Of a stretch of DNA of 64,000 nt, positions 37,966 through 59,671 are shown one piece after another (the first letter of the stretch is position 1; every line of letters starts with the position of its first letter). Both the position numbers and the translations under genes were made by a program. The notes beneath the pieces are model-generated. The model made no database searches. It was not told where the DNA came from and was given only the letters and a program-made list of their open reading frames with translations. Source of the DNA: Nitrospiria bacterium. GTDB lineage: Bacteria; Nitrospirota; UBA9217. The DNA is taken from assembly GCA_919901555.1 (NCBI GenBank), contig CAKKPG010000003.1, forward strand, positions 1 through 64,000, given 5' to 3'.

Positions 37966-40431
37966 TTACGCGTTCCCTGCCGCCGGAGCCCCGGGCGCTT
38001 CCTTCTCGTCCTCTCGCTCCACCACCTTGGCGAGGCTCACGACCTTGTCTCCTTCTTCCGTTTCGAGCAGGCGCACGCCCTGGGTGTTCCGCCCCTGGAC
38101 CGTGATGTCCTTGGACCGGGTCCGGAGTATCTTGCCGTTGCTGGTGATCAGGAGGATTTCGTCCTCTTCCGAGACCTGGGCCATGCCGACCACCCGGCCG
38201 TTCTTCTCCGTCGTCTTGATGGTGATGATGCCCTTGCCGCCCCTGCCCTGGCTCCGGTAGTCGTCGAGGGTGCTCCGTTTTCCATAGCCGTTCTCGGTCA
38301 CCGTCAGGATCGTGGAGTCGTCGCGCACGATCTCCATGCCGACGACCCCGTTCCCTTCGTCGAGCCGCATGCCGATGACGCCTTTGCCCGTGCGGCCGAT
38401 CTCGCGGACGTCGGCTTCGTTGAAGCGGATGGAGAGGCCGTCGCGGGTGCCCAGAAACACGTCCTGCTTGCCGTCGGTCACCTCGGCCGCGATAAGCTCG
38501 TCGCCCTCTTCAAGGGTGATGGCGATGATGCCCGACGGCCGGGGGTGGCTGTAGGCCTCGAGCTCGGTCTTCTTGATGATGCCCTGCTTCGTGGCCATGA
38601 GGATGAAGTGGTCCGGCGTGAATTCACGCACCGGCAGCGCGGCCGTTACCCGCTCGTCCGTGCGGATCTGGAGCAGGTTCACGATGGCCTTGCCCTTGGC
38701 CTGCCTGCCCGCCTCGGGGAGCTGATGCACCTTGAGCCAGTATACCCGCCCCTTGTTCGTGAAGAAGAGGATGTAGCTGTGCATGGTGGCCATAAAGAGC
38801 CGTTCCACGAAATCCTCTTCCCGGGTTTCCATGCCGATCTTCCCCTTGCCGCCGCGCTTCTGGGCGCGGTAGATCGTAAGGGGGTTGCGCTTGATGTAGC
38901 CTGCATGGGAGATGGTGATCACCATCTCCTCGTCCTTGATGAGGTCTTCGATGTCGATCTCGGTGGACGCGGCGACGATCTCCGTCCGCCGGGGATCGCC
39001 GTATTCCGCTTTGAGAGCAAGCAGCTCGTCCCGGATGATCTTCATCACGAGGGCGTCGGAAGCAAGGATCTCGTTCAGGCGGGCGATTTCCTTGAGAACT
39101 TCTTCGTACTCCTGGATTATCTTGTCGCGCTCGAGGCCCGTGAGGCGCTGGAGCTTCATGTCCAGGATGGCCTGGGCCTGAAGGTCCGAGAGCTTGAATT
39201 CCCGGATGAGGCCGGTCCTGGCTTCTTCGGGGTTCTTGGACGCCTTGATGAGCGCGATCACCGCGTCGAGGTTCTCCAGGGCGATCTTCAGGCCCAGGAG
39301 GATGTGGGCGCGCTCCTCGGCCTTCCGGAGGTCGTACCGCGTCCGGCGCACCACCACCTCCCGGCGGTGCTGGATGAAGCTGGACAGGAGCCTGCGCAGG
39401 TTGAGGACCCGCGGCTGGTTGTTCACGAGGGCCAGCATGATCACGCCGAAGGTGGACTGCATGGCCGTATGCTTGAAGAGCTGGTTCAGGACGACGTTCG
39501 TGATCTCGCCGCGCTTGAGCTCCATCACGATCCGCATGCCCTCGCGGTCGGACTCGTCGCGGATCTCTGAGATGCCGGTGATTTTCTTCTCCTGCATGAG
39601 CTCGCCGATCTTCTCGAGCAGACGGGCCTTGTTCACCTGGTAGGGAAGCTCGGTGACGATGATGCTTTCCCTGTCCCCCTTGCCCGGCTCGATGAACGCC
39701 CGCGCACGCATGTGGATGATGCCCCTGCCGGTGGTGTAGGCCTGGCGGATGCCGTCGATGCCGTGGATGAATCCGGCCGTGGGAAAGTCCGGCCCCTTGA
39801 TGGCGGACATGAGCTCCTGCACCGTCACCTCGGGGTTGTCGATCATCATCACGAGACCGTCAATGACTTCCGGCAGATTATGGGGCGGAACGTTCGTTGC
39901 CATGCCCACGGCGATGCCGGCGGAGCCGTTAATAAGCAGGTTCGGCACGCGGGTGGGCAGCACCGAAGGCTCGACCGTGGTGTCGTCGAAGTTCGGGACG
40001 AATTCCACGGTCTCCTTGTCGATGTCGGCGAGCAGCTCTTCCGCCAGTTTCGTGAGCCTGGCCTCGGTGTAGCGGTAAGCCGCTGCCGGGTCGCCGTCCA
40101 CCGAGCCGAAGTTGCCCTGGCCGTCCACGAGCGGGTAGCGCATGTTGAAGTCCTGGGCCATGCGCACCATGGTATCGTAGACCGCGCTGTCGCCGTGAGG
40201 ATGATATTTCTTCAGGACCTCGCCCACCACGCCGGCGCTTTTGGAATATTTCTTGTTGTGCAGGAGCCCTTCGCGGAACATGGCGTAGAGGATGCGCCGG
40301 TGCACGGGCTTGAGCCCGTCCCGCACGTCCGGCAGCGCCCGCCCTACGATCACGCTCATGGAGTAATCGAGGTAGGCGGTCTTCATCTCCTGCTCGATGT
40401 TGATCTGTGTTTTTATTTCCTGTGGTTCCAT
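37966..40431 (-). CDS. gyrA: DNA gyrase subunit A
   Basis: An 821-aa gyrase subunit that cuts and reseals DNA. The quinolone-resistance region reads [18 protein letters not shown] with the usual Ser and Asp, and the catalytic Tyr lies in [14 protein letters not shown]. The C-terminal beta-pinwheel contains the GyrA-box AQKRGGKG. The ATG at 40431 (MEPQEIKTQ) has only a weak purine-rich ribosome site (AAAGAAAG); an upstream in-frame TTG lies inside the cloverleaf repeat. The gene follows gyrB, with only that repeat in the spacer. Confidence 0.97.
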
Positions 40432-40445
40432 AGGCTTTCTTTTCT

Positions 40446-40528
40446 TGGACCAAGGCAACCATGTTGCCGTTTTTTAAGGTCGGCGATCACCTCGCCGCCT
40501 TTGACGCCGACATGGTCGGCTCGGTCCA
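40446..40528. repeat. Cloverleaf-forming 83-bp repeat, copy 2 (gyrB-gyrA spacer)
   Basis: TGGACC...GGTCCA ends enclose GGCAAC-cat-GTTGCC (40454-40468), GGCGA-tcacc-TCGCC (40482-40496, extendable by AAGG/CCTT) and GCCGAC-atg-GTCGGC (40506-40520). The middle arm differs in sequence from copy 1 (4967-5046) but is still paired. It begins two bases after the gyrB stop codon. Confidence 0.8.
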
Positions 40529-40530
40529 CA

Positions 40531-42933
<2,403 letters not shown>

Positions 42934-43079
42934 TCATTCCTCGCAAAAAAAGGGATTTGTCCCGCCGGTGCAGACAATCCCTCAAGCCAAAACTGCAAAT
43001 GCTAAATCCGAAACTCTAGCATCAGTCGAATGCACAAGCTGTTTAATGATTCGTGCTTGGAAATTCGCGCTTGCCTCAA

Positions 43080-44195
43080 TTACACCCTCATGGGCATGAC
43101 AACACACCGGTAACCTTCATTGCCCTCTTCCAGGATCAGACACGGGCTAAGGGGGTCGTTGAGCTCCAGCCGGATCGTCTCCCGATCCATGGCGCTGAGC
43201 ACGTCCATGAGATAGCGCGAATTGAAGCCTATGGCCACCCCTTCCCCCTGGTAGTCCACCGACAGCTCTTCGCTTGCTTCGCCCACTTCCGGGTTGTTCG
43301 TTGAGAGCACCAGCCTGTTTTTCTCGAGCTGGAGTTTCACCGCGTTCGTCTTTTCCTTGGACAGGATCGAGACCCGCTTCACCGCGTGGGTAAAAAGGTC
43401 CCTGCCGATGGCGATCTTCTTCGTGTTCTGCGTGGGCACGACCTGCAGGTAGTTGGGGTAATTGCCGTCGATGAGCTTCGACACCATCACGAGCCCGTCC
43501 CGCTTGAAGAGCGCGTGATTCTTGCTGAAGCCCACCTGGAGTTCCGCCGCAGAGGCGTCCTCTTCGAGGAGGCGGCGGAGCTCCATCATGGCCTTCTTCG
43601 GAACAATGATGCTCTCATCCTTGTGCTTCGCCTCCACCACGCGGTCGATCATGGACAGCCGGTGGCCGTCGGTGCCCACCATGCGGATGTTCATGCCGCC
43701 CTTGGCAGAAGTAAGCTGCACAAACAGGCCGTTCAGCACATACCGCGCGTCATTCTCTCCTACTGCGTAGAGCGTCTTCTTGATCATGTCCCGCAGGAGG
43801 TCGCCTGCGATGGTGAACATGCCTTCTTCAGGCACGTCGGGAAGCGCGGGATACTCTTCCTTGGGCAGGCCGACGAGCTTGAACTGCGAGTGGCCGGAGA
43901 CGATCTTCACCCACGTGCCGTCTTCAACGCGGAGCTGGATGTCTTCCTCCGGCAGCTCGCGCACGATCTCGTACATCTTCTTGGCGGACACGGTCACGGC
44001 CCCGGGCGCTTCCACCTCTGCGGCGTACCGGCCGCGCAGCCCGATCTCCAGGTCCGTGGCGACGATCTCGACACCCTTGCCGTTTGCCGTGAGGAGCATA
44101 TTGGAGAGGATAGGCATGGTGTTCTTTTTATCCACCACACCCTGAATCCGCTGCAACCCCTTCAGAATTTCGTCTTTTTTTATTTTCAGTTTCAT
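43080..44195 (-). CDS. dnaN: DNA polymerase III beta subunit (sliding clamp)
   Basis: A 371-aa clamp with three similar domains. Recognised segments include MKLKIKKDEILKGLQRIQGV, LSNMLLTANGKGVEIVATDLE, GTDGHRLSMIDRV and the C-terminal EGYRCVVMPMRV, which forms part of the clamp-binding pocket. Length matches the family. It lies 87 bp after dnaA in the usual dnaA-dnaN order. Confidence 0.96.
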   Translation of the reverse strand: MKLKIKKDEILKGLQRIQGVVDKKNTMPILSNMLLTANGKGVEIVATDLEIGLRGRYAAEVEAPGAVTVSAKKMYEIVRELPEEDIQLRVEDGTWVKIVSGHSQFKLVGLPKEEYPALPDVPEEGMFTIAGDLLRDMIKKTLYAVGENDARYVLNGLFVQLTSAKGGMNIRMVGTDGHRLSMIDRVVEAKHKDESIIVPKKAMMELRRLLEEDASAAELQVGFSKNHALFKRDGLVMVSKLIDGNYPNYLQVVPTQNTKKIAIGRDLFTHAVKRVSILSKEKTNAVKLQLEKNRLVLSTNNPEVGEASEELSVDYQGEGVAIGFNSRYLMDVLSAMDRETIRLELNDPLSPCLILEEGNEGYRCVVMPMRV

Positions 44196-44282
44196 CCAGG
44201 TGCCTCCTCAAGCTGCGTTCTGAATATTATCAGAAACTCCGCCAAATAGCAACAGAATTTTTCGTCGTTTTACTCTTTAACT

Positions 44283-45611
44283 TCAAAACGTTAGCTGCTT
44301 TATGAGTGCCTCGATCCTGGCCTTGAGGTCCTGGTCTTTTTCCTTCTTTTCCTCGATCACCTTGCAGGCATGGATGACGGTGCTGTGGTCCTTGCCGCCG
44401 AAGAGACGGCCTATCTCCGGAAGGGATGTGCCTACCAGGGTACGGCACAGATACATGGCCACCTGCCGGGGCAGGACAACGGCCTTGGTGCGCCTTTTTG
44501 ATTTCAGATCCGACAAGCGGACCCCGAAGGCATCGGTCACGACCTTCTGCACGAGCTCATTCGTGATCACCTTGTCCCGGCTGTCGATGAGGTACTTGAG
44601 CTCGTTCTTTGCCATCTCTTCGGTGATCTCGGTGTTGGTAAGAGACGATACGGCGCCGAGCTTCACGAGTCCGCCTTCGAGCTCGCGTATGTTGTTTTTC
44701 ATCATGGACGCCAGAAACGCGGCGACATCGTCGGGCAGGCGTATGGCCCAGAACTCCGCCTTTTTCCTGAGAATGGCGATCCGTGTCTCCAGATCCGGGG
44801 CCTGGATGTCGGCGATCAGCCCCGATTCGAAGCGCGAGCGGAGCCGCTCCTCGATGTCCGGGATCTCCTTGGGCTGCCGGTCGCTCGTGAGCACGATCTG
44901 CTTCTGTAACTCATACAGCGTGTTGAAGGTGTGGAAAAACTCTTCCTGCGTCCGCTCCTTGCCCGCGATGAATTGAATATCGTCGATGAGCAGGATGTCC
45001 ATGTTGCGGTACTTTTGCCGGAATTCTTCCATGCGCTGGTGGCTCATGCGATTGATGAGTTCGTTGGTAAACTGCTCCGACGACAGGTAGGCCACCTTGG
45101 TCCTCGGCGCCCTGCTCTGGATATGGTGGCCGATGGCGTTCAGGAGATGGGTCTTGCCGAGCCCCACACCGCTGTAAATGAACAGGGGATTATAGGACCT
45201 GCCCGGCGCGTCTGCCACCGCCCGTGCGGAGGCATGGGCGAACTGGTTGCTCGGCCCAACCACAAAATTGTTGAAGGTGTATTTCTTTTCCAGGGTGCTC
45301 GTCTTTTCCTCGCGCCCCTCTTTTTTCTCTTCTTTTACCGGAGACGCCGGTTTCTTCTGCTGCTGTGGCTGGACAAAAAAGTCGATCTCCACGTCCTCCC
45401 GCTTCGTAACCTCCCTGATAACGTCCGCCAGCGTGGACCAGTGGTGCTCTTTGATCCAGTCCCTGTGGAATTTGCTCGGCACTTCCACGACCATCCGGTT
45501 GTCCTCGAGCCCGTGAAGCTTGGACTGGCTGAACCAGGTGTCGTAACCCTGCTTAGACATTCGATTTTCAATCAATAAGAGTATCTCTTCCCACACTCTG
45601 TTCTGGTCCAT
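44283..45611 (-). CDS. dnaA: Chromosomal replication initiator DnaA
   Basis: A 442-aa AAA+ initiator. Domain I occupies the first 80 residues (WEEILLLIENRMSKQGYDTWF), then a short charged linker, the ATPase core with Walker A GVGLGKTHLLNAIGHH and Walker B ILLIDDIQFIAGKE, and the DNA-binding domain IV with the signature GGKDHSTVIHACKVIEE. The start at MDQNRVWEEI (45611) has GAGG close upstream. A pair of DnaA boxes lies 38-57 bp before the start. Confidence 0.97.
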   Translation of the reverse strand: MDQNRVWEEILLLIENRMSKQGYDTWFSQSKLHGLEDNRMVVEVPSKFHRDWIKEHHWSTLADVIREVTKREDVEIDFFVQPQQQKKPASPVKEEKKEGREEKTSTLEKKYTFNNFVVGPSNQFAHASARAVADAPGRSYNPLFIYSGVGLGKTHLLNAIGHHIQSRAPRTKVAYLSSEQFTNELINRMSHQRMEEFRQKYRNMDILLIDDIQFIAGKERTQEEFFHTFNTLYELQKQIVLTSDRQPKEIPDIEERLRSRFESGLIADIQAPDLETRIAILRKKAEFWAIRLPDDVAAFLASMMKNNIRELEGGLVKLGAVSSLTNTEITEEMAKNELKYLIDSRDKVITNELVQKVVTDAFGVRLSDLKSKRRTKAVVLPRQVAMYLCRTLVGTSLPEIGRLFGGKDHSTVIHACKVIEEKKEKDQDLKARIEALIKQLTF

Positions 45612-46047
45612 ATAAACCTCGGAAAAAACGCGCCGGTTACAAACATGCTTATCCACATGTGTTGATAACCGGTTTTCTCTTTTTTTTTCTTATTGTTATG
45701 ATCTTGCTCGGAGGCTTATTATCCGCTTTTTGATACCCTGGTTTTGCTGGAATAGTTGTGTCTACAGTTGATCGTCCTTCGCACACATTTTGCAGCTTCC
45801 GGCCTGTGCCTCTTTGCGACAACGTCAGACTATACCAGAACCCGTTTTTTCTAGCAAGGTATTTTTCTCCGCCCGGGGCTGAAACGCCCAGGGAAAGACC
45901 GGAACGCATGCATATGCGAAAAATTTGCTTGACATTGCAACTAGTCCCCTATATGATTTAAAACGTTTGTTTCTGTTTTTTGCTCGCGGTCGTGACGATG
46001 TCACGGCTGTTTGCTCTGTTCCGAACTTGTTTGAGGAGGTGAAAGTC
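45612..46047. other. Probable replication origin (oriC) between dnaA and tusA
   Basis: Two DnaA boxes face each other: TTATCCACA (45649-45657, perfect) and, on the other strand, TTATCAACA (45660-45668). They are enclosed by CCGGTTA (45633-45639) and TAACCGG (45666-45672). An AT-rich tract of T-runs (45673-45702) follows and could be the unwinding element. Genes point away on both sides and the minus-strand block to the left is co-oriented with a fork leaving this site. The assignment is inference from structure and gene order. Confidence 0.7.
45929..45957 (+). promoter_or_regulatory. Sigma70 promoter of tusA-dsrE2
   Basis: TTGACA (45929-45934), a 17-bp spacer and TATGAT (45952-45957). The predicted leader to the tusA ATG is about 84 nt. 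Confidence 0.75.
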
Positions 46048-48095: not shown

Positions 48096-48746
48096 TCAGT
48101 AGTACCGGCGTTCACGCTCGCCCGTCGCAGGGGGGAGCGTCACGTCACCAGGCGCGCCCGGTGTCGAAGCGCCCGCATCCTTTTGTTTGGGACACGAGGA
48201 TGCCGGTACGCCGTGTAATGGCTGCTTCTGGTAGTCTCCCGTTTCATCTTTGACGATCTTTTCGAGCACAAACCCGCAGTAGCGCCTCGAGACAAACTCG
48301 AACTTCGTCTCGTAAAGCGCATTTTCGCCCGGCGTAAACAGGTAGCCTACGGGTCCGCACTCCTCGACCATCTTCTGATCGGGCCGCGTCAGGGTTTCAG
48401 ACTTGTAATAGAATGAGACAGCTATCGGTTCGTTCGCCTTCACGTAAAACTCGTCGAACTTTCCCTTCTTCGGCTGCAGCGGCATATCAAGGCGCTTCGC
48501 GCACCGGACGAAGCCGGCATAGGGGCCTGCGACACCGGCGCCCTCATTGTCCCGGTTGAAGCAGGTCTCGCCCGGGTAGAACCGGACCATAGCCCCCTGG
48601 TAGACGACCCTGATCTTCGCACGGGGCCCCTCTGCCGGTTCCGTGTACGGCGGCGCGACGCTGAACGCGAGGCTCCGCAGAGGGCCGCAGGAAGGAAGAG
48701 TGAACAGCAAAAGAAGCAATATGATTATATGTCGAGTGATCCGCAT
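48096..48746 (-). CDS. Hypothetical lipoprotein
   Basis: A 216-aa lipoprotein starting at MRITRHIIILLLL, with lipobox FTLPSC and acylated Cys near residue 20. The mature domain has several conserved-looking Cys residues (ETCFNRD, VRCAKR, EECGPVG, RRYCGF) that could form disulfides, and a Pro/Gly-rich tail. No family recognised. Upstream of and probably co-transcribed with the TPR protein. Confidence 0.7.
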   Translation of the reverse strand: MRITRHIIILLLLLFTLPSCGPLRSLAFSVAPPYTEPAEGPRAKIRVVYQGAMVRFYPGETCFNRDNEGAGVAGPYAGFVRCAKRLDMPLQPKKGKFDEFYVKANEPIAVSFYYKSETLTRPDQKMVEECGPVGYLFTPGENALYETKFEFVSRRYCGFVLEKIVKDETGDYQKQPLHGVPASSCPKQKDAGASTPGAPGDVTLPPATGERERRYY

Positions 48747-48968
48747 TGAGCTTACCTTGCTTTTAACCGTTAACACAACTCGCGACTTGTACAAATCATA
48801 GCCTCAGTCTACAAAATCCAAATAGCTGGGGGAACCATTAGACCACGAGACATAAATTCTTGCTCTGGCAGCCGACGTGATCTTTTCCAATCAGGCGTGG
48901 ACAATACGGTTCCCTTCATCGATGTTCCGGCAGAGCCGCTCATGGGTGACCCCATGGGGTTTTCAAGG

Positions 48969-50115: not shown

Positions 50116-50355
50116 TTATCTCTTCGGGGCTCCTGTTGCCATTACACGACCATGCTGGTTGTTTATTCTTATCCATGGGCTTGGCTTGATTTGTCCGTTA
50201 ATCCACACCAACCATGTACGTAACTCCTCCACAACCCGAGGATTGCTACTTGCCCAGCCATGAACAGCGCAAAACTTTAAAGCAATATCTAAGGCTTGTT
50301 CTTTCACTATTTTCGGCTTTGGAATGAAAAACAACAATCTAATAAATTTAATCAC
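50116..50355 (-). CDS. Putative immunity protein for the TpsA/CdiA-like toxin
   Basis: A 79-aa protein whose start overlaps the toxin gene stop by 4 nt, the position of cdiI in contact-dependent inhibition loci. The sequence (KEQALDIALKFCAVHGW, a conserved TWLVW segment, SPWIRINNQHGRVMATGAP) suggests a small alpha/beta fold resembling NTF2-like immunity families. Low GC matches the adjacent toxin tip, so the two probably arrived together. The immunity function is inferred from position. Confidence 0.6.
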   Translation of the reverse strand: MIKFIRLLFFIPKPKIVKEQALDIALKFCAVHGWASSNPRVVEELRTWLVWINGQIKPSPWIRINNQHGRVMATGAPKR

Positions 50356-53300
50356 TTTCTGTCCCCATATAACGATTGATATGCGTAGTAGCTCATACCA
50401 CCAGTAATGCCAACGTATCCAAATGCTTCAAATGTTAGTCGTGTTTTTGAAATTCCGTATCCATCTAGTGGAAAGGTTAGTCCGTACCTTAAGCTACCAA
50501 CACCAACTGTCTCGGCAATTGCTTCTTCTAAATAGCGCGCTAAATGTGAATTTTGGTATGCCCACATGCCAATCTCAGCTCTTGTCTCTTGCAAGGGGCC
50601 TCCAAGAGGAGTGAAAAAGCGGTGCACACCCTCATGTGTAACTGTTTCTATAAGCTCCTGCCCTGACAAGCCATGCGCGATTGTGATGTTGCCGAATTCA
50701 TCCGTTAAACCTAGTGCGTCACCTGTATCACCATATTTCCAAGGTATTTTGCTCGAAAAATCATCAGCAAAGCTCGATGCCTGCTTTGCTGCGGCGGTCT
50801 CTGTTTTCAGTGTTGTTGCGGCGGCCCGTGCCTCAGTTGCCACAGGCCCGAGGTTGGGCACCACAGAAGCGGGCGATGCTTCCACGCCTGCTGCCGTGTA
50901 TATCCCTGCCTCCGTAACGCCCATGCATCCAAAGGGATTTGCCAGGCAATACCCCACCGGATTTTGCAAGAATGCCGTCACCTCTGCCCCGACGGCTGAG
51001 AGGGCAGGCCACAGCACATACCCCCCTGCGGCCACCACGGCTGTCTTGCCGAGGATCTCATGGGGCAGGTTCTTTTCTCTCCATTCCTGCGGGGTAAGCC
51101 CGCGGCTCTGCTGTGTCTGTGCATGGGCATAGCTGTCCAGATTGCGCAGCCGGACATCCATGTTGATGTACGGGTTGTAGTACTCTTCTGCCGTGACCTG
51201 GACGCTATTCTTGCCCATGAAGCTGGTGACCTGCCTGTCTTCTCTGAATCCATCGGTCTTTGCGGTCTCATAGTCTGCCCAGCGCAGCATTTGGCGCATG
51301 AGACGGCCCTCGGCCTCGTCTTCCGTGATGTCCAATCCTTCCTTGTCCTTGACCCACTTCTGGAATTGCTTGGCGTATTTCTTGGCGCGGTCTATCTCGT
51401 GCTGATGCAACTGCCGGTTGTACTTCTCCCCGTCGAGGGCCGTTGCAGCGCCGGTCATGACCTCGGATGAGTTCCCTCCGGTGAGCTTGGCTGCCGTGGC
51501 GCCGATGATGACGCTGGCCCACTGCTGTTCGGCGTCGGAAAGTTTCCTCGTCATGTCCCGGCTAAGCTCGGCTGCGCCTGCGCCGACGGCTCCGGAGAAG
51601 GCGTTGCCTCCGCCGTACTTGGCTTGGAGCCCGCCGACAAGCGCGTGCATAGCGGTCTTGATGGCACTGCCTTCTTTCCAGGTGTCGTATTGTTCCTGAT
51701 ACTTCTGCATGTCGGCCCTGGCCTGGGCGATGACAGCATCAATGTTGCCCATGTTCAGGCCCTGCTTTTCATAATCCTTGATCGCCTTGAGGTCTTCTTC
51801 TGAGGGATTTTCCTTGTTCTTGAGTTTTCGGTAATCGTCTGCGGCCGTTGACGTCAGTTCAGCCTTCTTATAGGGGTCGGTAAACATTTTTGCGATGTCC
51901 CCGACGAGCCTGAAGGCTTCTTCGCCGAAGACCCTGGCGAACTCCTGCTGTTCCTCCACCTTCTTCTGGTCGAAGATCTTGCCCAAGGCCTGGTGCGCGG
52001 CCTCAGGATCGCGGGAGAGTTCGCTGAGGTCCTGGTCCGGGTTGCTCCGGATCCGGATGGTGGCCGGGCTGATGGCTGCGAGCGTGGCGCTGCTTTCGCT
52101 GTCTGACGAAGATACGCCGACAATGGGTACGCCGGACACGCCTGTGCCGCCGATGCCGGGTTTGGATGGATCATAGCCGGCGCTCACGCTCGTTGTGCTT
52201 GCGGAGTATTCCGCCTTGTTCTCGATATTGGACCAGGAGAACGTCCCGGTGCTCAGACTGTTTTTGTCCGCTTCTGCCGTGCTCGCGATCACGGCGCCTT
52301 TGAGCTCGGTATGCGCGCCGACGGTGATGTCAAAGCCGCCCGCTCCGGCGAAGAATCCTGTCTGCTCGATGACGGAGCGGAACTCGGACTCGGTCTTTCC
52401 CTGGGTGTAGGAGAGGTTCCCGCTGCCCTTGCCGGGTCCAATGGGTATGCTCACGCTGCCGCTTACGCTCTTGTTCTCTGCGCGGTAGGTTTCGGTGTCC
52501 TGCTCGCTCTCGAGGGAGAGGTTCCTGCCCACATCGGCCGTGATCGTCTCTGCCCGTGCCTGCGCGCCCTTGAGCGTCGTGTCCCTGCCGCTCTTGATTG
52601 AGAGATTCTCCTGGGCCGTGAGTTGGGTCTCCGTGTGGGTGAGGCTGTGCGCTTCGGTATTGCCGGTGGAGTAGGAGCCTTCGGCATAGACGGCGACGCC
52701 TCCCTGACCCTTCCCGCTGACGCCGACGGAGACGCCGGCGCCGCCGGAGGAGCTCCTGCTCGTGCTCCTGCTGTCCATGGTGTTTTTTGCGGACTGGAGC
52801 GTGATGTCGCGGGCCGCGTCAAGGCTGATATTCTTCCCTTCGAGCGCGCTGCCGATAACGGCGATGTCACCGCCTGCTCCGTTGGCGCCCGTGGCCGTGA
52901 TGTTCAGGCTGCCGTCGGTGATGAGCCTGCTGCCCACGGCAGTCGTGCTGTGGCTTTCGCTCTCGCTCTTTGACTTGCTCGTGCTGACGCCGACCTTGAC
53001 CTGTACGCTCGTGGCCGCATCTAAGTTCTGATAGGCGTCATAAAGCGCTCTGCCGCCGCGGTAGGCATAAAGCGCCTTGAGCCGGCTGTCCTGCACCTGG
53101 TCGGAGCGCTCCTCGGCCTCGTGGGCCTTGCCCACGTTCTCGATGACCTTGTTCCCTACCTGGAGGTTGAGACCGTAGCTCTTGCTTTCGAAGGTGGACC
53201 GGGTATCAGCGGTGTTGTAAGCCGAATTGATGGCGACATTCCGCGCCGTGATGTCCGTTCCTGTCGCTGAGAGGACTTCGCTGCCCGTTATCGCGGCGTC

Positions 53301-56300
53301 CTTCCCCGCGGTGATGGTCACCCCGCCCGACACGGAGCCCACGGCGCTGCCGACGTTGTTCACGACGTCGACCTCGCTCGTGCTCTTTTGTTTCGTCGTT
53401 CCGTAGGTGGCGCCGAGCCCGCCTTTTCCAAAAGAGGCGCTGACGCCGGTCCGCCTCTTGCGCTGCTCCTGCTCTTCGTGCAGGGTTTCCCCGGCGGTGG
53501 TTATTGCAACGTTGCGCGCCGCGGTCAGGGATACGTCGCCGCTGCCGACCACGGCGCTCCCCTGGACGGTGAGATCATTGCCGCTCGCAATGGTGACCGT
53601 ATCGCCTGACACCGTGCTGCCCGCGGCAATATCCTGCTCTGTCACGGTCCGGCTTTCGTTCAGTTTGCCGGTGAGGGCGCCCTTGGTCCTGGTGCGGTTC
53701 TGCGTGAGGCTCGTGTGCCGCTCCCGCGCTTCTTTGACGGTGACGTCGTTCTCAGCCGCGAGCGTCACGCCGCCGGCCTGACTGGCAATGCTGCTCCCCT
53801 CAATGGTGATGCTGCCGGGCGCGGGCCCGTCGTCTCCGCCGGTCCGGCGTTCCGCGCCGACGCCCTGGCGTCCCGCGACGATGATGACGCTGCCGCCGGC
53901 CTCCAGGCTGGAGCCGACGGCAATCTCGTCGTCGGTCACGCTGAGGGTTGAGGAACTCTTGCTCTTTTTTGTGATGAGTTCATTCTGCGCAGCGCCGACA
54001 ACGGTCGCACCGCCCGAGGCCAGGCTCAGCGCGGCGCTGAAGGCCGCATTCAGACCGCTGGTTTTCAGCTCCCGCCGCTCGTGCTCCTCGTGACGGGTCT
54101 CCGTTGCAGCGGTGATGGTGACGTTGTCGTCTGCCGCAAGAGTGATGGAGTCAGCGGCTGCGACTTCACTGCCCCGCACGTTGATGTCCTTGCCGCTCGC
54201 GATCGTGACGCTGTTGCCGGAAATGAAGCTGCCCTGGACGAGGTTTTGTTCGATGTAATCTCTGGTCTCGACGGTCTTGGTGGAGAAGGTTCTTTTTTTC
54301 GTGGTCTTTGTTTCCGTCAGGCTTTCGTGATGTTCGAGCACTTCCTCGACCGTGACGTCGTTTTCAGCCAGAAGCGTCACGTCTCCGAATTGACTGGCGA
54401 TAATGCTTCCCTGGAGGAGGATGTTTCCGTACCCCTGGGCGGCTTCTCGGTCTCCGGACGGCAGCGCAGCAATGAAAATATTTCCCCCTGCCAGAAGACT
54501 GGAACCTACGACAGTTTCGTCGTCGGTTCTGGTGCGCGTGTAATTGTCCTGTCCACCTCCCTTGACATCGAGAAGGGACCGTTCTTTGACCGCCGTGATA
54601 GTCACATTGCGGCCGGCGAGAAGATCGAGATCAGCGCCTGCGGCAACCTGGGCCCCGGCAAGGGTAGCGTCCTGCCGGGCAGTGAGCGTAAGATTGCCGC
54701 CTGTCTGAACGGAGCTGGCGAGAATGGTCGTCTCGTCACGCGTATAGAAGCCGCCGCCGGCAAAGACCACGGCGACCCGCTCGTTCTCTTCCACACTTCC
54801 GATAGTGAGGTCGCGTCCTGCATAAAGCTCGGCATCTCCGCCCGCGGTGATCCCGCTGCCGGCGAGCACCAGGTCCCTGCCGGCCGCGGCGAGGATATCG
54901 CCGCTCGAGTCGATCGTCGCCTGGCTCTGCGCGCGAGTGGAGGCAAAGGCGCCGCTATCGCGGGTGACGGTCAGGGTCTCGCTCCGGATGTCGCGTCCCG
55001 CGTCAAGAGCGATCCGGCCGCCGGACAGCGTGCCGCTCTGGTTCACGATGTCGTTGGTTGAGGCAAGGGTGAGAAGCCCCCCGGCGTCGATCCTGCCTCC
55101 CTGGTTGATGATATCGGCGCCCATGATCGCGGCGCGGTCTCCGGCCATGATGGTGCCGCTGTTGAAGAGATCGTCGGACGTGCGGAGCTCGATGTTCTGG
55201 GCGGCAATGAGGGCGCCCGACGGCCGCAGGTCGTTCTGCCGGAGTTGGGACAGATACACGACCGGAGCGAGGACCTTCTGGCCCAGAACCTCCTGCTCCA
55301 CGAGCCAGACCATGTCTGTGGTAAGCTGGGCCATCTGCTCCGCGGTCAGGCCCACGCCCACTTTCAGATCAAATGCCTGCGCATAGGCGATTCCCGCATC
55401 CATGAGGGCCTGGAACTGTCCTTCGGCGCTGCTGGAGTCCTCCAGGAAGCGCCGACCGGTGGCCTGCGTAACCTGATCGAGTACCAGCTTCTGTTCATAG
55501 AACCCGTCACCCAGCCGTTTCTGGGTCAGTGCCGGATCGTAAGCCAGCCTTTCCAACATATAGTCGCTGGACATGAAATTCCTGAGGTCGGTGAAAAGCG
55601 GATTTGTCTCGACGAGATAGCCTTGGTTCGGGGCTGCCGGCTTATAGAGGCCGCCTTGAGGCATGGTGAAGGTGAAGTCCGGGATATTTGCAGTATCATT
55701 AGGAATCGATCCGAGAGACGTGGTTGAGTCTCCGGGCCCTTGGGTGACATTGTTGATCTCACCGGCGTTGACAGTCAACTGATTACCTGCGGCGATAGTG
55801 GCTGCGCCCGGCAAAAAAACATTTTGTGTCACGATTTCGGGGGAAGAATACGGGTAAGTGTACGGATCCTCAGGCCAGTTGCTATAACAGCCCCAAGGAC
55901 GACATGTCCTATTCTCGTATGTATAGATCAGTGTTTGAGTTCCTTCGCCTGTGGTGACGTTGAATCCTCCGCGGCCGGTATTATTGAGCACTCCGGTTGC
56001 ATCGATCGTAAGATTGTTTCCTGCGGCGATGATGGAGTATTCATTGTTGACATCGGTGGCCTGGATAGTCAAGTCACGACCCGCAAGGAGCGCGCCGGAA
56101 GGGCTGTCTGCCGTCACTTGGGTGACTGTCGTGTTCTCCACATAACTGGCAGTAGCCCTGATGTATCCCGCATATACAAATTTGATCCCTACCGGCAGCC
56201 CTTCTGGTATCGGAATTGGTACATTCATAAAAGTTTCTGTCTGCTCAGGATCCAAAAACTCTTCCGTCGTAAAGACTCGTTTCTTGTTGGTTATCGTGTC

Positions 56301-57629
56301 GGCGGAAACGGTAATGTCCCTTCCCGCTTCGATGGTGGCTGACTGGTTCAGGATGCTTCCGGTGCGGATGTAATTGCCGCCTGTATCCTTTTCCGCACTT
56401 CCCGCAATCACGATGTCGCCCATGCTGAAGAGGGAAGCGCCGTCTTTGTTTGTGAGAGAGTCGGTAACGAAAAAATTGGCCGTGCCTGTTTCATTCTTTG
56501 TTGCTATGACGGCGGAGGAGCCGTCGTTCAGGAGTTGGGCCGCATTGATGGTAAGCTGGTCGGCGATGACCGTGCTGTTGTTGGTCAACAGTCCGTTCGC
56601 GCTGATCGCCATGTTTCCGTTGCTGTACAGGATATTCGGATTGCTGCTATCGCCGCTGTTCAGAAGCGAAATGTCTCCGCTGCTCTGGATCGAGAGGTTG
56701 CCGCCCGCCGTAGTCTGCCCGTTCAGGACGATGTTGCCCTCATTGGTAAGAGTAAAGTCTCCGGTTGACGCAATGACGCCGTTGTTGACGACGCCGACCC
56801 CCTTTTCGGTGCCCACGAGCCGGATCTTGTTGGCGTACATTCCGCCCAGGGCCGCCACGTCGAGGCTCACCTGGGGCTGCGCCCCCTCGCCGGTGATGGG
56901 CGTGGCAGCGAGATCTGCGTAGTTCACCTGGTTTGCGCCTGTAATCACGTTCAGATGGTTCGCCCAAAGGGAGGAGTTGACGTTCACGGTCCGGCTGATG
57001 AGGTCTACCTGATCAATGTTGCCTGCGTTCAGGCCGCCCCCCTGTTCATCTCCTGTTATGGTGATGTTGCCGCCCGTGACGCGGAAGGCGTCGAGGCTGC
57101 CCGTTCCGCCGAAGAGCGGTGTGCCGGTGGAGAGGACGCCGCGGCTTGCATTGATGAAGCCGCAGCCGTCGCAGGTGATGCCGTTGGGGTTGGCGATCAC
57201 GACCTCGGCCTGCTGTCCTGCGACCTCGGTATACCCCCGGAGCGAGCTCGCGCCGGTGCCCGTGACCTCGTTCAGGATGACCCGCGCCGATCCCTGCGTA
57301 AGATAGGGATTGGCGTCCACGTAACCGGCCTGCTGGGTGAGAGAGAGGGACGTGGCGTTGTTCAGGATCGCGCCCTGGGGATCGACATTGAAATCGGTGA
57401 ACTGATTGCGCGAAACGCCTGCGGCGGATGGATCGGTTATCTGGACGAGGGGCAGTCCATTGGCCGTTGTTTCAATGTGGGGCATGTAGGCGCCGGCGGA
57501 CGGATCGGCCGCCATCTGCGCCGCGGCGATGGTCGGCTGAGCGATGAAGGATAGGAGGGTCAACCAAGCGATTAGTCGCCTGAAACTGCCTTCCGTTCTC
57601 TGGCGTATATTCATCTGTCGGCGATTCAT
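50352..57629 (-). CDS. TpsA/CdiA-like filamentous exoprotein with metallopeptidase-like toxin tip
   Basis: A 2425-aa secreted protein. After the signal peptide (LIAWLTLLSFIAQPTIAAAQ) comes the TPS secretion domain with ANPNGITCDGCGFIN, then FHA-type repeats over most of the length (GSxI and DxxI motifs). Near the C-terminus, LQNPVGYCLANPFGCMG marks a typical CdiA pre-toxin segment, then a variable tip of about 140 residues carries HEGVH (bases 50622-50636), a zinc HExxH motif, and a later EEAIAETVG helix that could supply the third ligand. The tip is more AT-rich than the body. GGGAGGTGCTTG precedes the ATG. tpsB lies upstream and a putative immunity gene overlaps downstream. Confidence 0.9.
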   Translation of the reverse strand: MNRRQMNIRQRTEGSFRRLIAWLTLLSFIAQPTIAAAQMAADPSAGAYMPHIETTANGLPLVQITDPSAAGVSRNQFTDFNVDPQGAILNNATSLSLTQQAGYVDANPYLTQGSARVILNEVTGTGASSLRGYTEVAGQQAEVVIANPNGITCDGCGFINASRGVLSTGTPLFGGTGSLDAFRVTGGNITITGDEQGGGLNAGNIDQVDLISRTVNVNSSLWANHLNVITGANQVNYADLAATPITGEGAQPQVSLDVAALGGMYANKIRLVGTEKGVGVVNNGVIASTGDFTLTNEGNIVLNGQTTAGGNLSIQSSGDISLLNSGDSSNPNILYSNGNMAISANGLLTNNSTVIADQLTINAAQLLNDGSSAVIATKNETGTANFFVTDSLTNKDGASLFSMGDIVIAGSAEKDTGGNYIRTGSILNQSATIEAGRDITVSADTITNKKRVFTTEEFLDPEQTETFMNVPIPIPEGLPVGIKFVYAGYIRATASYVENTTVTQVTADSPSGALLAGRDLTIQATDVNNEYSIIAAGNNLTIDATGVLNNTGRGGFNVTTGEGTQTLIYTYENRTCRPWGCYSNWPEDPYTYPYSSPEIVTQNVFLPGAATIAAGNQLTVNAGEINNVTQGPGDSTTSLGSIPNDTANIPDFTFTMPQGGLYKPAAPNQGYLVETNPLFTDLRNFMSSDYMLERLAYDPALTQKRLGDGFYEQKLVLDQVTQATGRRFLEDSSSAEGQFQALMDAGIAYAQAFDLKVGVGLTAEQMAQLTTDMVWLVEQEVLGQKVLAPVVYLSQLRQNDLRPSGALIAAQNIELRTSDDLFNSGTIMAGDRAAIMGADIINQGGRIDAGGLLTLASTNDIVNQSGTLSGGRIALDAGRDIRSETLTVTRDSGAFASTRAQSQATIDSSGDILAAAGRDLVLAGSGITAGGDAELYAGRDLTIGSVEENERVAVVFAGGGFYTRDETTILASSVQTGGNLTLTARQDATLAGAQVAAGADLDLLAGRNVTITAVKERSLLDVKGGGQDNYTRTRTDDETVVGSSLLAGGNIFIAALPSGDREAAQGYGNILLQGSIIASQFGDVTLLAENDVTVEEVLEHHESLTETKTTKKRTFSTKTVETRDYIEQNLVQGSFISGNSVTIASGKDINVRGSEVAAADSITLAADDNVTITAATETRHEEHERRELKTSGLNAAFSAALSLASGGATVVGAAQNELITKKSKSSSTLSVTDDEIAVGSSLEAGGSVIIVAGRQGVGAERRTGGDDGPAPGSITIEGSSIASQAGGVTLAAENDVTVKEARERHTSLTQNRTRTKGALTGKLNESRTVTEQDIAAGSTVSGDTVTIASGNDLTVQGSAVVGSGDVSLTAARNVAITTAGETLHEEQEQRKRRTGVSASFGKGGLGATYGTTKQKSTSEVDVVNNVGSAVGSVSGGVTITAGKDAAITGSEVLSATGTDITARNVAINSAYNTADTRSTFESKSYGLNLQVGNKVIENVGKAHEAEERSDQVQDSRLKALYAYRGGRALYDAYQNLDAATSVQVKVGVSTSKSKSESESHSTTAVGSRLITDGSLNITATGANGAGGDIAVIGSALEGKNISLDAARDITLQSAKNTMDSRSTSRSSSGGAGVSVGVSGKGQGGVAVYAEGSYSTGNTEAHSLTHTETQLTAQENLSIKSGRDTTLKGAQARAETITADVGRNLSLESEQDTETYRAENKSVSGSVSIPIGPGKGSGNLSYTQGKTESEFRSVIEQTGFFAGAGGFDITVGAHTELKGAVIASTAEADKNSLSTGTFSWSNIENKAEYSASTTSVSAGYDPSKPGIGGTGVSGVPIVGVSSSDSESSATLAAISPATIRIRSNPDQDLSELSRDPEAAHQALGKIFDQKKVEEQQEFARVFGEEAFRLVGDIAKMFTDPYKKAELTSTAADDYRKLKNKENPSEEDLKAIKDYEKQGLNMGNIDAVIAQARADMQKYQEQYDTWKEGSAIKTAMHALVGGLQAKYGGGNAFSGAVGAGAAELSRDMTRKLSDAEQQWASVIIGATAAKLTGGNSSEVMTGAATALDGEKYNRQLHQHEIDRAKKYAKQFQKWVKDKEGLDITEDEAEGRLMRQMLRWADYETAKTDGFREDRQVTSFMGKNSVQVTAEEYYNPYINMDVRLRNLDSYAHAQTQQSRGLTPQEWREKNLPHEILGKTAVVAAGGYVLWPALSAVGAEVTAFLQNPVGYCLANPFGCMGVTEAGIYTAAGVEASPASVVPNLGPVATEARAAATTLKTETAAAKQASSFADDFSSKIPWKYGDTGDALGLTDEFGNITIAHGLSGQELIETVTHEGVHRFFTPLGGPLQETRAEIGMWAYQNSHLARYLEEAIAETVGVGSLRYGLTFPLDGYGISKTRLTFEAFGYVGITGGMSYYAYQSLYGDRK

Positions 57630-57922: not shown

Positions 57923-59671
57923 TTAATACTGCCAGGTCACCTGAAATCCTGCAGCCGGACGTTCCGTCCTGAATCCGTCAGGCTTCCGCAGCGGCCAACC
58001 AGAAAAGGCGTCGTAAAAAAATCCTTTATACTTGCCGCGAACCCCGATAACGCCGCCGGTGAGGCTCTTTCCCGCCAGCAATTCGTCCGACGGCCCTTTG
58101 ACAGCGCCATGATCAATGCCCAGATAGAACTCCTGTCGGGTTTTGAAGATCGGCATGCCGAGTTCATTTCTCAGATACCAGCCGCGCTCGGCAAGGAGGG
58201 TGTGCGCGCCGTCAAAGCCGCGGACCGTATACCGATTGCCGATGGAGAACTGGTCCGCAACGAGCAGGCGGTCCGCTGTATACTGGGCCCGGCCGCGATT
58301 GCGGTACTGCATCGGAATGCTCCATAGGGTAAACGGGATCATTGTTGTCACGTCGAGCGTCCCGATCTTGTACCGGGTCGTGGGGCCGTCGGGCGCCGAA
58401 TACGCCGGGTCCGGCTGCGCGTTCAACCAGGGCACACCCTTGCGAAAGGCGGCGGTGACGTCCACCGTGGCCTTCCCCACGGAACGGCGATGGAACAAGC
58501 CGAGCTCCGCATCGGCCTGCTCCCGGCGCTGCACCTCGATCTCAGTATCATCCAGATAGGTCCGGGACTCGCGTTTGCCGAGACGGAACTGAAGGCCTGT
58601 TCTGCTCACCCTGCCGCGATGGATCACGCGCTGTACGGTCGCGTCCGCGGTCCGCGTTGTTCCGCTGTACTGGAAGCTCGTGACGGTCCCTTCCACGGTC
58701 TGCCGGTAACTGGAGACGCTGCCTTGCGCGCTCAGCGTCCAATATCCGTAAGGAACGGAGTAATACATGCTTTCGCTGCCTGTACGACGCAGCCAATGCT
58801 TCGTTGCCGCATCGTGGTTCCATGACAGGGACAGAAGATCATTGATGCCAAGCGGATTGTCCCAGGCGAAGCCGGCCCCCGCCTGCAGCTTGCCCGTCGT
58901 CGTTGAGCCGGAGTCGTCGAGAGAGAGGCTTGCCCGCCAGGCCTTTTCCCGCTCGACGCCGAGGACCACGTCACTTTCACCGGGCTGCACACCGGGCTTG
59001 ATCTTGAGGTCCACATCCTGGTAGGGGACCCGCTTCATCTGCTCCAGGCCCTGCTCGAGGTCCCGCAGGTTCAGCAGGTCGCCGCGTCCCGAAGGGAATG
59101 CCGTTTTCCAGGTGCCCCGCATGGCCTCATCGGCAAAGCGGATATCACTGATGACGCCGGGGACCAAGGCGAGCCTCAGCACGCCGGAAGAGATATCCTG
59201 CTCCGGCACGCCGATGCGCGTCGTAACGTAACTACGATCGATAAGCCGGCCCATGAGCCGCTTGACAATGAGGTTGATGCCCTCGCGGCCGATGCATTTG
59301 TCCACGTAGGGGGCGACGTCGTCCCGGAGCCACGAGAACCGGTCGCTTTGCTCCCCCTCGAGCACAATGGTATGGATCGGAAAGCACGGCGACTCGGCCG
59401 GCAGCTCAAAAGTCTCCGCAGCGCGAGGCTCTCCCTCAAGCTGCACTTCCGGCGCCTGCCGCTTCCGACGATCTTCTTCCTCCAATTGCCGCTGCTTACG
59501 CCGCAACTCCTCGACGGCAGTTGGGTCGCCGGCCGTTTGACCGTATGCTGGAGGGGCCGCGAAAAACCATGCAAGGCTCAGCATTCCCAAGGCAACGATC
59601 GCGCCGAACCTCGCAAGCCGCCTGAGAACAGAGCAAGAGCCTGCGTCTTTCTCCTGATATGCGTTCGTCAT
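57923..59671 (-). CDS. TpsB/ShlB-family outer-membrane secretion barrel
   Basis: A 582-aa two-partner secretion transporter. Signal peptide (GMLSLAWFFAAPPAYG), a charged Q/R/E/K-rich helix (residues 60-95, plug region), POTRA segments (CFPIHTIVLEGEQSDRF, IDRSYVTTRIGVPEQDISSGVLRLALVPG) and a 16-strand barrel ending in FQVTWQY. It exports the TpsA protein encoded downstream through the outer membrane. A consensus promoter is 245-275 bp upstream. No clear ribosome site is visible at the ATG at 59671. Confidence 0.9.
   Translation of the reverse strand: MTNAYQEKDAGSCSVLRRLARFGAIVALGMLSLAWFFAAPPAYGQTAGDPTAVEELRRKQRQLEEEDRRKRQAPEVQLEGEPRAAETFELPAESPCFPIHTIVLEGEQSDRFSWLRDDVAPYVDKCIGREGINLIVKRLMGRLIDRSYVTTRIGVPEQDISSGVLRLALVPGVISDIRFADEAMRGTWKTAFPSGRGDLLNLRDLEQGLEQMKRVPYQDVDLKIKPGVQPGESDVVLGVEREKAWRASLSLDDSGSTTTGKLQAGAGFAWDNPLGINDLLSLSWNHDAATKHWLRRTGSESMYYSVPYGYWTLSAQGSVSSYRQTVEGTVTSFQYSGTTRTADATVQRVIHRGRVSRTGLQFRLGKRESRTYLDDTEIEVQRREQADAELGLFHRRSVGKATVDVTAAFRKGVPWLNAQPDPAYSAPDGPTTRYKIGTLDVTTMIPFTLWSIPMQYRNRGRAQYTADRLLVADQFSIGNRYTVRGFDGAHTLLAERGWYLRNELGMPIFKTRQEFYLGIDHGAVKGPSDELLAGKSLTGGVIGVRGKYKGFFYDAFSGWPLRKPDGFRTERPAAGFQVTWQY

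Follow-up and report, generated by a model that had tools for sequence, protein, structure and literature searches.

A probable CDI-type polymorphic toxin locus in a Nitrospiria bacterium with a predicted zincin-like tip and a PepSY-like presumed immunity protein

We analysed a 64,000-nucleotide stretch of DNA from a Nitrospiria bacterium (the window), which probably encodes a polymorphic toxin of the CDI type, whose tip is zincin-like and uncurated and whose immunity protein is PepSY-like. The anatomy of the locus, the exchange of tips on a conserved body and the presence of the tip with a small downstream gene in unrelated carriers are the parts of this reading that are based on sequence; delivery, peptidase chemistry, toxicity, binding of the tip by the immunity protein and action in the cytoplasm are inferred. 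The tip and the presumed immunity protein match no catalogued Pfam or NCBIfam family.

Results

Anatomy of the locus

Searches with Pfam profiles identified a two-partner-secretion locus on the minus strand of the window, consisting of a TpsB gene and a TpsA gene. The features of the locus are as follows.

57923 to 59671, minus strand: TpsB, a CdiB-like outer-membrane transporter of the ShlB/FhaC type with POTRA domains, 582 aa (PF03865, E 8e-103; PF17287; PF08479)
50352 to 57629, minus strand: TpsA, an FhaB/CdiA-like exoprotein, 2425 aa (TPS domain PF05860 and nine Fil_haemagg_2 stretches, PF13332)
56727 to 57521, minus strand: TPS secretion domain of TpsA (PF05860, E 8e-50; 1.8e-51 in the genome search)
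50775 to 51539, minus strand: conserved pretoxin region including NPVGYC, aa 2031-2285 (common to the third toxin end, the last orphan module, of genome G143)
50352 to 50774, minus strand: variable AT-rich toxin tip, aa 2286-2425, a predicted zincin-like metallopeptidase (homology break, GC shift, relatives L006-L010)
50622 to 50636, minus strand: HEGVH, aa 2332-2336, presumed zinc site (conserved in relatives)
50508 to 50537, minus strand: RYLEEAIAET, aa 2365-2374, helix presumed to supply the third ligand (all six relatives keep Y, E, A and E)
50352 to 50355, minus strand: overlap of the toxin stop with the immunity start, 4 nt (GTGA; from the sequence)
50116 to 50355, minus strand: 79-aa presumed immunity protein with a PepSY-like predicted fold (AlphaFold2 model, Foldseek, weak homology to small ORFs)
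48096 to 48794, minus strand: lipoprotein-like gene downstream of the TpsA locus (conserved flank in G143, 30% identity, E 4e-27)

The most plausible start of TpsA is the ATG at 57629, behind GGGAGGTG, which gives 2425 aa; a longer frame of 2446 aa was rejected, as it represents a mechanical upstream start only. The 79-aa ORF begins with a GTG within the toxin stop codon (AAAGTGATT). A first-pass annotation of this DNA had described a 79-aa gene overlapping the tip gene by 4 nt, and both this overlap and the annotated coordinates, including 57629 as the end coordinate, agreed with the start context and the sequence. The same annotation had noted the lack of a typical VENN boundary, and a motif search of the whole TpsA protein likewise found no VENN, (E/Q)LYN or similar boundary motif. 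In other species the boundary is known to carry other motifs (PMC9086364), so that these two are not required of every CDI system.

The tip and the 79-aa gene differ from the rest of the locus in composition. The GC content was 0.44 in the tip and 0.42 in the 79-aa gene, as compared to 0.60 in the TpsA body and 0.62 in TpsB, and the corresponding GC3 values were 0.52, 0.41, 0.75 and 0.74. The AT-rich cassette spans both tip and 79-aa gene, and just 2.7% of the 648-bp stretches of the window are equally AT-rich. Composition and homology both break near aa 2286 (nt ~50774), ~60 residues past NPVGYC, and NPVGYC is therefore part of the conserved pretoxin region. The terminal module of ~140 residues that had been proposed is distinct and AT-richer, as judged by GC and GC3, but it does not start directly at NPVGYC; this motif was rejected as the tip boundary because the homology to G143 runs ~60 residues further.

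Exchange of tips on a conserved body

The last 398 residues of the TpsA body were searched in 148 relatives, and one other genome was found to match closely: G143, which belongs to a different family of the phylum. The same tpsB-tpsA locus is apparently present in it, split by the assembly between contigs C14 and C23. The G143 TpsB is 54% identical to that of the window and its TpsA is homologous. Beyond the toxin modules G143 has the lipoprotein-like gene and a TusA-like gene (E 2e-8), both of which are also found near the window locus.

Contig C23 contains three toxin ends, all unlike the window tip, namely a TNT domain and two orphan modules. The frame that enters C23 from the contig edge ends in the TNT domain (PF14021, E 1e-16), followed by a 103-aa gene that overlaps it and matched no Pfam family. 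TNT, the tuberculosis-necrotizing-toxin, represents an NAD-glycohydrolase family. This apparent TNT end belongs to the main CDI-type gene of G143 (L022:2-1450), with the 103-aa gene at L022:1440-1751. Each of the two orphan modules is followed by a 122-aa gene, and that of the last module also has a 4-nt overlap. The last module shares 61% identity with the window body over 199 aa, with up to 15 of 15 residues identical per block; the identity wanes along the linker that leads up to aa ~2286 of the window protein, and past this point none is left. The window tip and the tip of this module resemble each other no better than chance (108 of 500 shuffles scored as high). Such an arrangement of orphan modules has been described for CDI (Poole et al. 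2011, PMC3150448).

A tip conserved together with its body had been named as part of the outcome that would refute the proposal; the tip turned out not to be conserved with the body, and three other tips were found on the same kind of body in G143. A variable C-terminal toxin on a conserved body, with a linked immunity gene, is the arrangement of CDI systems, and the best reading of the comparison is that the tip and its immunity gene are swapped together as one cassette, which would have been exchanged into the window locus. Like CdiB/CdiA/CdiI, the window has a TpsB exporter and a TpsA with TPS domain and hemagglutinin repeats, an exchangeable C-terminal tip and an overlapping small downstream gene, with orphan modules at the G143 locus. 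Unlike CdiB/CdiA/CdiI, its TpsA has neither VENN nor (E/Q)LYN at the boundary, the tip is short (~140 aa) and the tip family is not curated in Pfam or NCBIfam.

Generic hemagglutinin repeats, with neither a VENN motif nor a Pfam pretoxin domain, make up the body, as would fit an ordinary filamentous-hemagglutinin-type adhesin with a variable, non-toxic C-terminus, next to a 79-aa ORF that is unrelated or not expressed. We consider such an adhesin highly improbable, as tip exchange is seen at a syntenic locus that has orphan toxin-immunity modules and a TNT toxin domain, the AT-rich cassette takes in the 79-aa gene along with the tip, and partner genes are also found beside the tip relatives.

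Each of the two G143 orphan modules (L022:1817-3118 and L022:3541-4785) has an ATG of its own, and their leaders are near-identical, hydrophobic and signal-peptide-like (MPNKR...LLISSSAFASIPK) and are not copied from the parent TpsA. Orphan cdiA-CT genes described earlier are usually without start signals (PMC9086364, PMC3150448). Because of their own ATG and leader, the G143 modules may be exported on their own.

Tip relatives and their carriers

Five relatives of the tip, with 26-36% identity, were found in proteins of Proteobacteria and Acidobacteria. They come from Salmonella enterica subsp. houtenae (L006, E 2e-5), from a Polymorphobacter plasmid (L007) and from Solibacter, Competibacteraceae and Rhodobiaceae MAGs (L008, L009 and L010, respectively). 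In these relatives the tip is located behind an unrelated N-terminal domain with hydrophobic segments. L009 lies directly behind the T6SS gene tssH/clpV (TIGR03345, 1277 bits) and L007 adjoins a gene annotated as hcp, so that a TPS protein and T6SS-associated proteins share one toxin module.

Pfam and NCBIfam gave no significant match for the hydrophobic N-terminal domain (L006:3467-3920, L007:3155-3560, L009:7458-7920, L010:7503-7920), which has the appearance of a mobile domain of the translocation or pretoxin kind. On a Moraxella plasmid a similar hydrophobic stretch stands behind RHS repeats with a different C-terminus (L015:3001-3333). The Solibacter module (L008:1407-2087) has HERIR in place of HExxH, the second His being replaced by Arg, has no partner gene on the same strand and lies beside transposase-like ORFs, for which reasons we regard it as probably decayed.

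The tip family is rare. The genome of the window is the only one of 296 genomes of the phylum to carry the tip, which is absent from the other 295, and samples of 399, 369, 247 and 199 genomes around the other carriers gave no further matches. Viral contigs scanned with the tip and with the six-sequence alignment yielded nothing, and no DNA match to the L006 relative was found in E. coli genomes. Weak matches in the window's own genome and one relative (L003-L005) were rejected as relatives, L005 lying in or antisense to genes unrelated to toxins, as were the plasmid matches H2-H4, which were at chance level.

The tip as a predicted metallopeptidase

HEGVH and a Glu-rich helix downstream of it had been noticed earlier in the tip, and both were recovered in our comparison. 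The TpsA protein has no HExxH other than HEGVH (aa 2332-2336), where ~0.013 would be expected from composition, and the helix corresponds to RYLEEAIAE (aa 2365-2373), which is conserved in the relatives. Six relatives all keep the H and E of HExxH, and five retain the second H. Tyr 2366, Glu 2369 and Glu 2373 are likewise invariant in the six, where the helix (Y..EA..E) sits 33-37 residues past the second His, a plausible spacing for the third ligand of a zincin. The tip thereby has the conserved HExxH and downstream Glu by which zincin metallopeptidases are broadly recognised.

Neither the tip nor the 79-aa protein had a significant match in Pfam, NCBIfam or the PDB. The tip profile, compared with all of Pfam at E up to 10, gave nothing but a non-significant match to DUF4386, and PDB profile searches with the tip and with the immunity protein returned noise only. 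The AlphaFold2 model of the tip was poor (pLDDT 36), because few relatives were found and the alignment was shallow. As structure prediction gave no usable fold, it is the HExxH and Glu pattern that points to metallopeptidase chemistry, and from this pattern the tip is most likely a zincin-like metallopeptidase.

The tip could instead be a real toxin with an immunity protein but no peptidase, in which HExxH is structural or fortuitous and killing takes place, for example, at the membrane. No structure or profile backs a zincin fold, and several members have a glycine-rich hydrophobic stretch after the helix, which is strongly hydrophobic in L010. We find this unlikely, however, given that H-E and the Y..EA..E helix are the best conserved residues across six divergent relatives and that L008, the sole member without the second His, also lacks a same-strand partner and lies beside transposase-like ORFs. 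Processing metallopeptidases are common in polymorphic toxins (PMC3482391), and the HExxH domain might accordingly release or process the exoprotein itself, like the PVC-metallopeptidases, rather than act as a toxin. The domain is, however, at the extreme C-terminus with no toxin domain behind it, unrelated tips replace it in G143, and its relatives have small genes of their own behind them, which makes self-processing very unlikely.

As a metallopeptidase toxin, the tip can be compared with several known groups. The Tox-MPTase1-5, ALF- and HopH1-type families of polymorphic toxins (Zhang et al. 2012, PMC3482391), which are listed there without a dedicated immunity family, resemble the window protein in being polymorphic toxins with a C-terminal HExxH domain. 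Membership in Tox-MPTase1-5 or another curated metallopeptidase-toxin family found no support, the tip having no significant match to a curated profile. The T6SS effectors VgrG2b and SARI_02727 also have HExxH and Glu, and they are antibacterial and paired with an immunity gene. Membership in the VgrG2b type was not supported, as the tip profile misses PDB 6H56 at E up to 10, though the two may be remotely related in structure. SARI_02727, an effector of the VgrG2b type, exerts its toxicity in the periplasm and is paired with a DUF7480 lipoprotein as immunity protein (PMC12992299), whereas the small protein of the window has no clear signal peptide.

The presumed immunity protein

Three of the five tip relatives (L006, L009 and L010) have a small ORF that overlaps the toxin or directly follows it, whereas L007 and L008 have no recognisable partner gene on the same strand. 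When aligned, these small ORFs and the 79-aa protein have in common a helix, a GW-type turn and a W-V strand. The 79-aa protein is 21-26% identical to the three, and hhalign aligned it with them at E 0.007. The 79-aa ORF ranked second of the 357 ORFs of the window, and 16 of 5000 self-shuffles scored higher. By these sequence comparisons, the homology of the 79-aa gene to the small genes beside the tip relatives is weak to moderate. No second copy of the gene was found in its own genome. The first-pass annotation had proposed tip and 79-aa gene as a toxin-immunity pair, and the tip relatives with small genes in other delivery contexts support this.

The AlphaFold2 model of the 79-aa protein has one helix and four strands (pLDDT 81). 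Its leading Foldseek matches were FoxB (probability 0.99), the lipoprotein 4exr (0.98) and YpmB (0.97), which we take to be PepSY-type folds. The best E was about 0.1, so that the PepSY likeness of the model is suggestive and not significant. The L006 partner matched the PF03413 PepSY profile weakly (E 0.03), and a Pfam search with the window protein gave no PF03413 match. Read by eye, the four small proteins show no clear signal peptide. Like the PepSY (PF03413) propeptide domains, YpmB and FoxB, the 79-aa protein is predicted to have a helix and antiparallel strands; unlike the PepSY propeptide domains of M4 metallopeptidases, the 79-aa protein is free-standing and has no clear signal peptide. 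PMC5078317, in a statement citing Yeats et al. 2004, has PepSY domains thought to inhibit their own M4 metallopeptidases. In the papers searched we found no description of a PepSY-type immunity protein paired with a toxin.

Discussion

In the mechanism that we propose, TpsB would export the filamentous TpsA to the cell surface following the logic of CDI, and on contact the ~140-aa C-terminal tip would pass into a neighbour cell, where it would most likely cleave a target protein as an HExxH and Glu metallopeptidase. Given that no clear signal peptide was seen in any of the four small proteins, a cytoplasmic target is suggested. The 79-aa protein, made from the overlapping start, would bind the tip and so protect the producer. 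An immunity protein of PepSY-like fold, set against a toxin that is a metallopeptidase, would suggest inhibition of the propeptide type in trans: the 79-aa protein may plug the active site, in the way supposed for PepSY propeptides and their M4 metallopeptidases. Relatives of the cassette ride on T6SS-associated proteins in other phyla.

A broader proposal, which we put forward tentatively and consider possible though rather doubtful, is that these interbacterial metallopeptidase toxins form one family, which spans TPS/CDI as well as T6SS carriers in several phyla and is neutralised by a separate PepSY-like protein, a detached propeptide inhibitor acting in trans. Immunity would then have its origin in the inhibitor that is built into secreted zinc peptidases, or have converged on it. 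If the immunity protein does work as a propeptide in trans, the zymogen control of peptidases would be linked to toxin immunity.

With this locus the polymorphic toxins gain an uncurated toxin-immunity family, and CDI-type systems gain a tip that is predicted to cut proteins. The locus also provides profiles of the tip and of the small gene, both currently missing from annotation libraries. It does so in a phylum where TPS-domain proteins were found in 32 of 118 sampled relatives (among them G006, G058, G109, G116 and G093). In several of the sampled relatives the TPS frames are open for 2200-3400 aa and could be further CDI-type proteins.

Large ORFs resembling gyrA, gyrB, dnaN and dnaA, as read by eye, are located at positions 37966-45656 of the window, and the CDI-type locus is therefore probably near the replication origin. 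Near the contig start, an ORF at 174-959 begins, also by eye, like a REP-associated tyrosine transposase.
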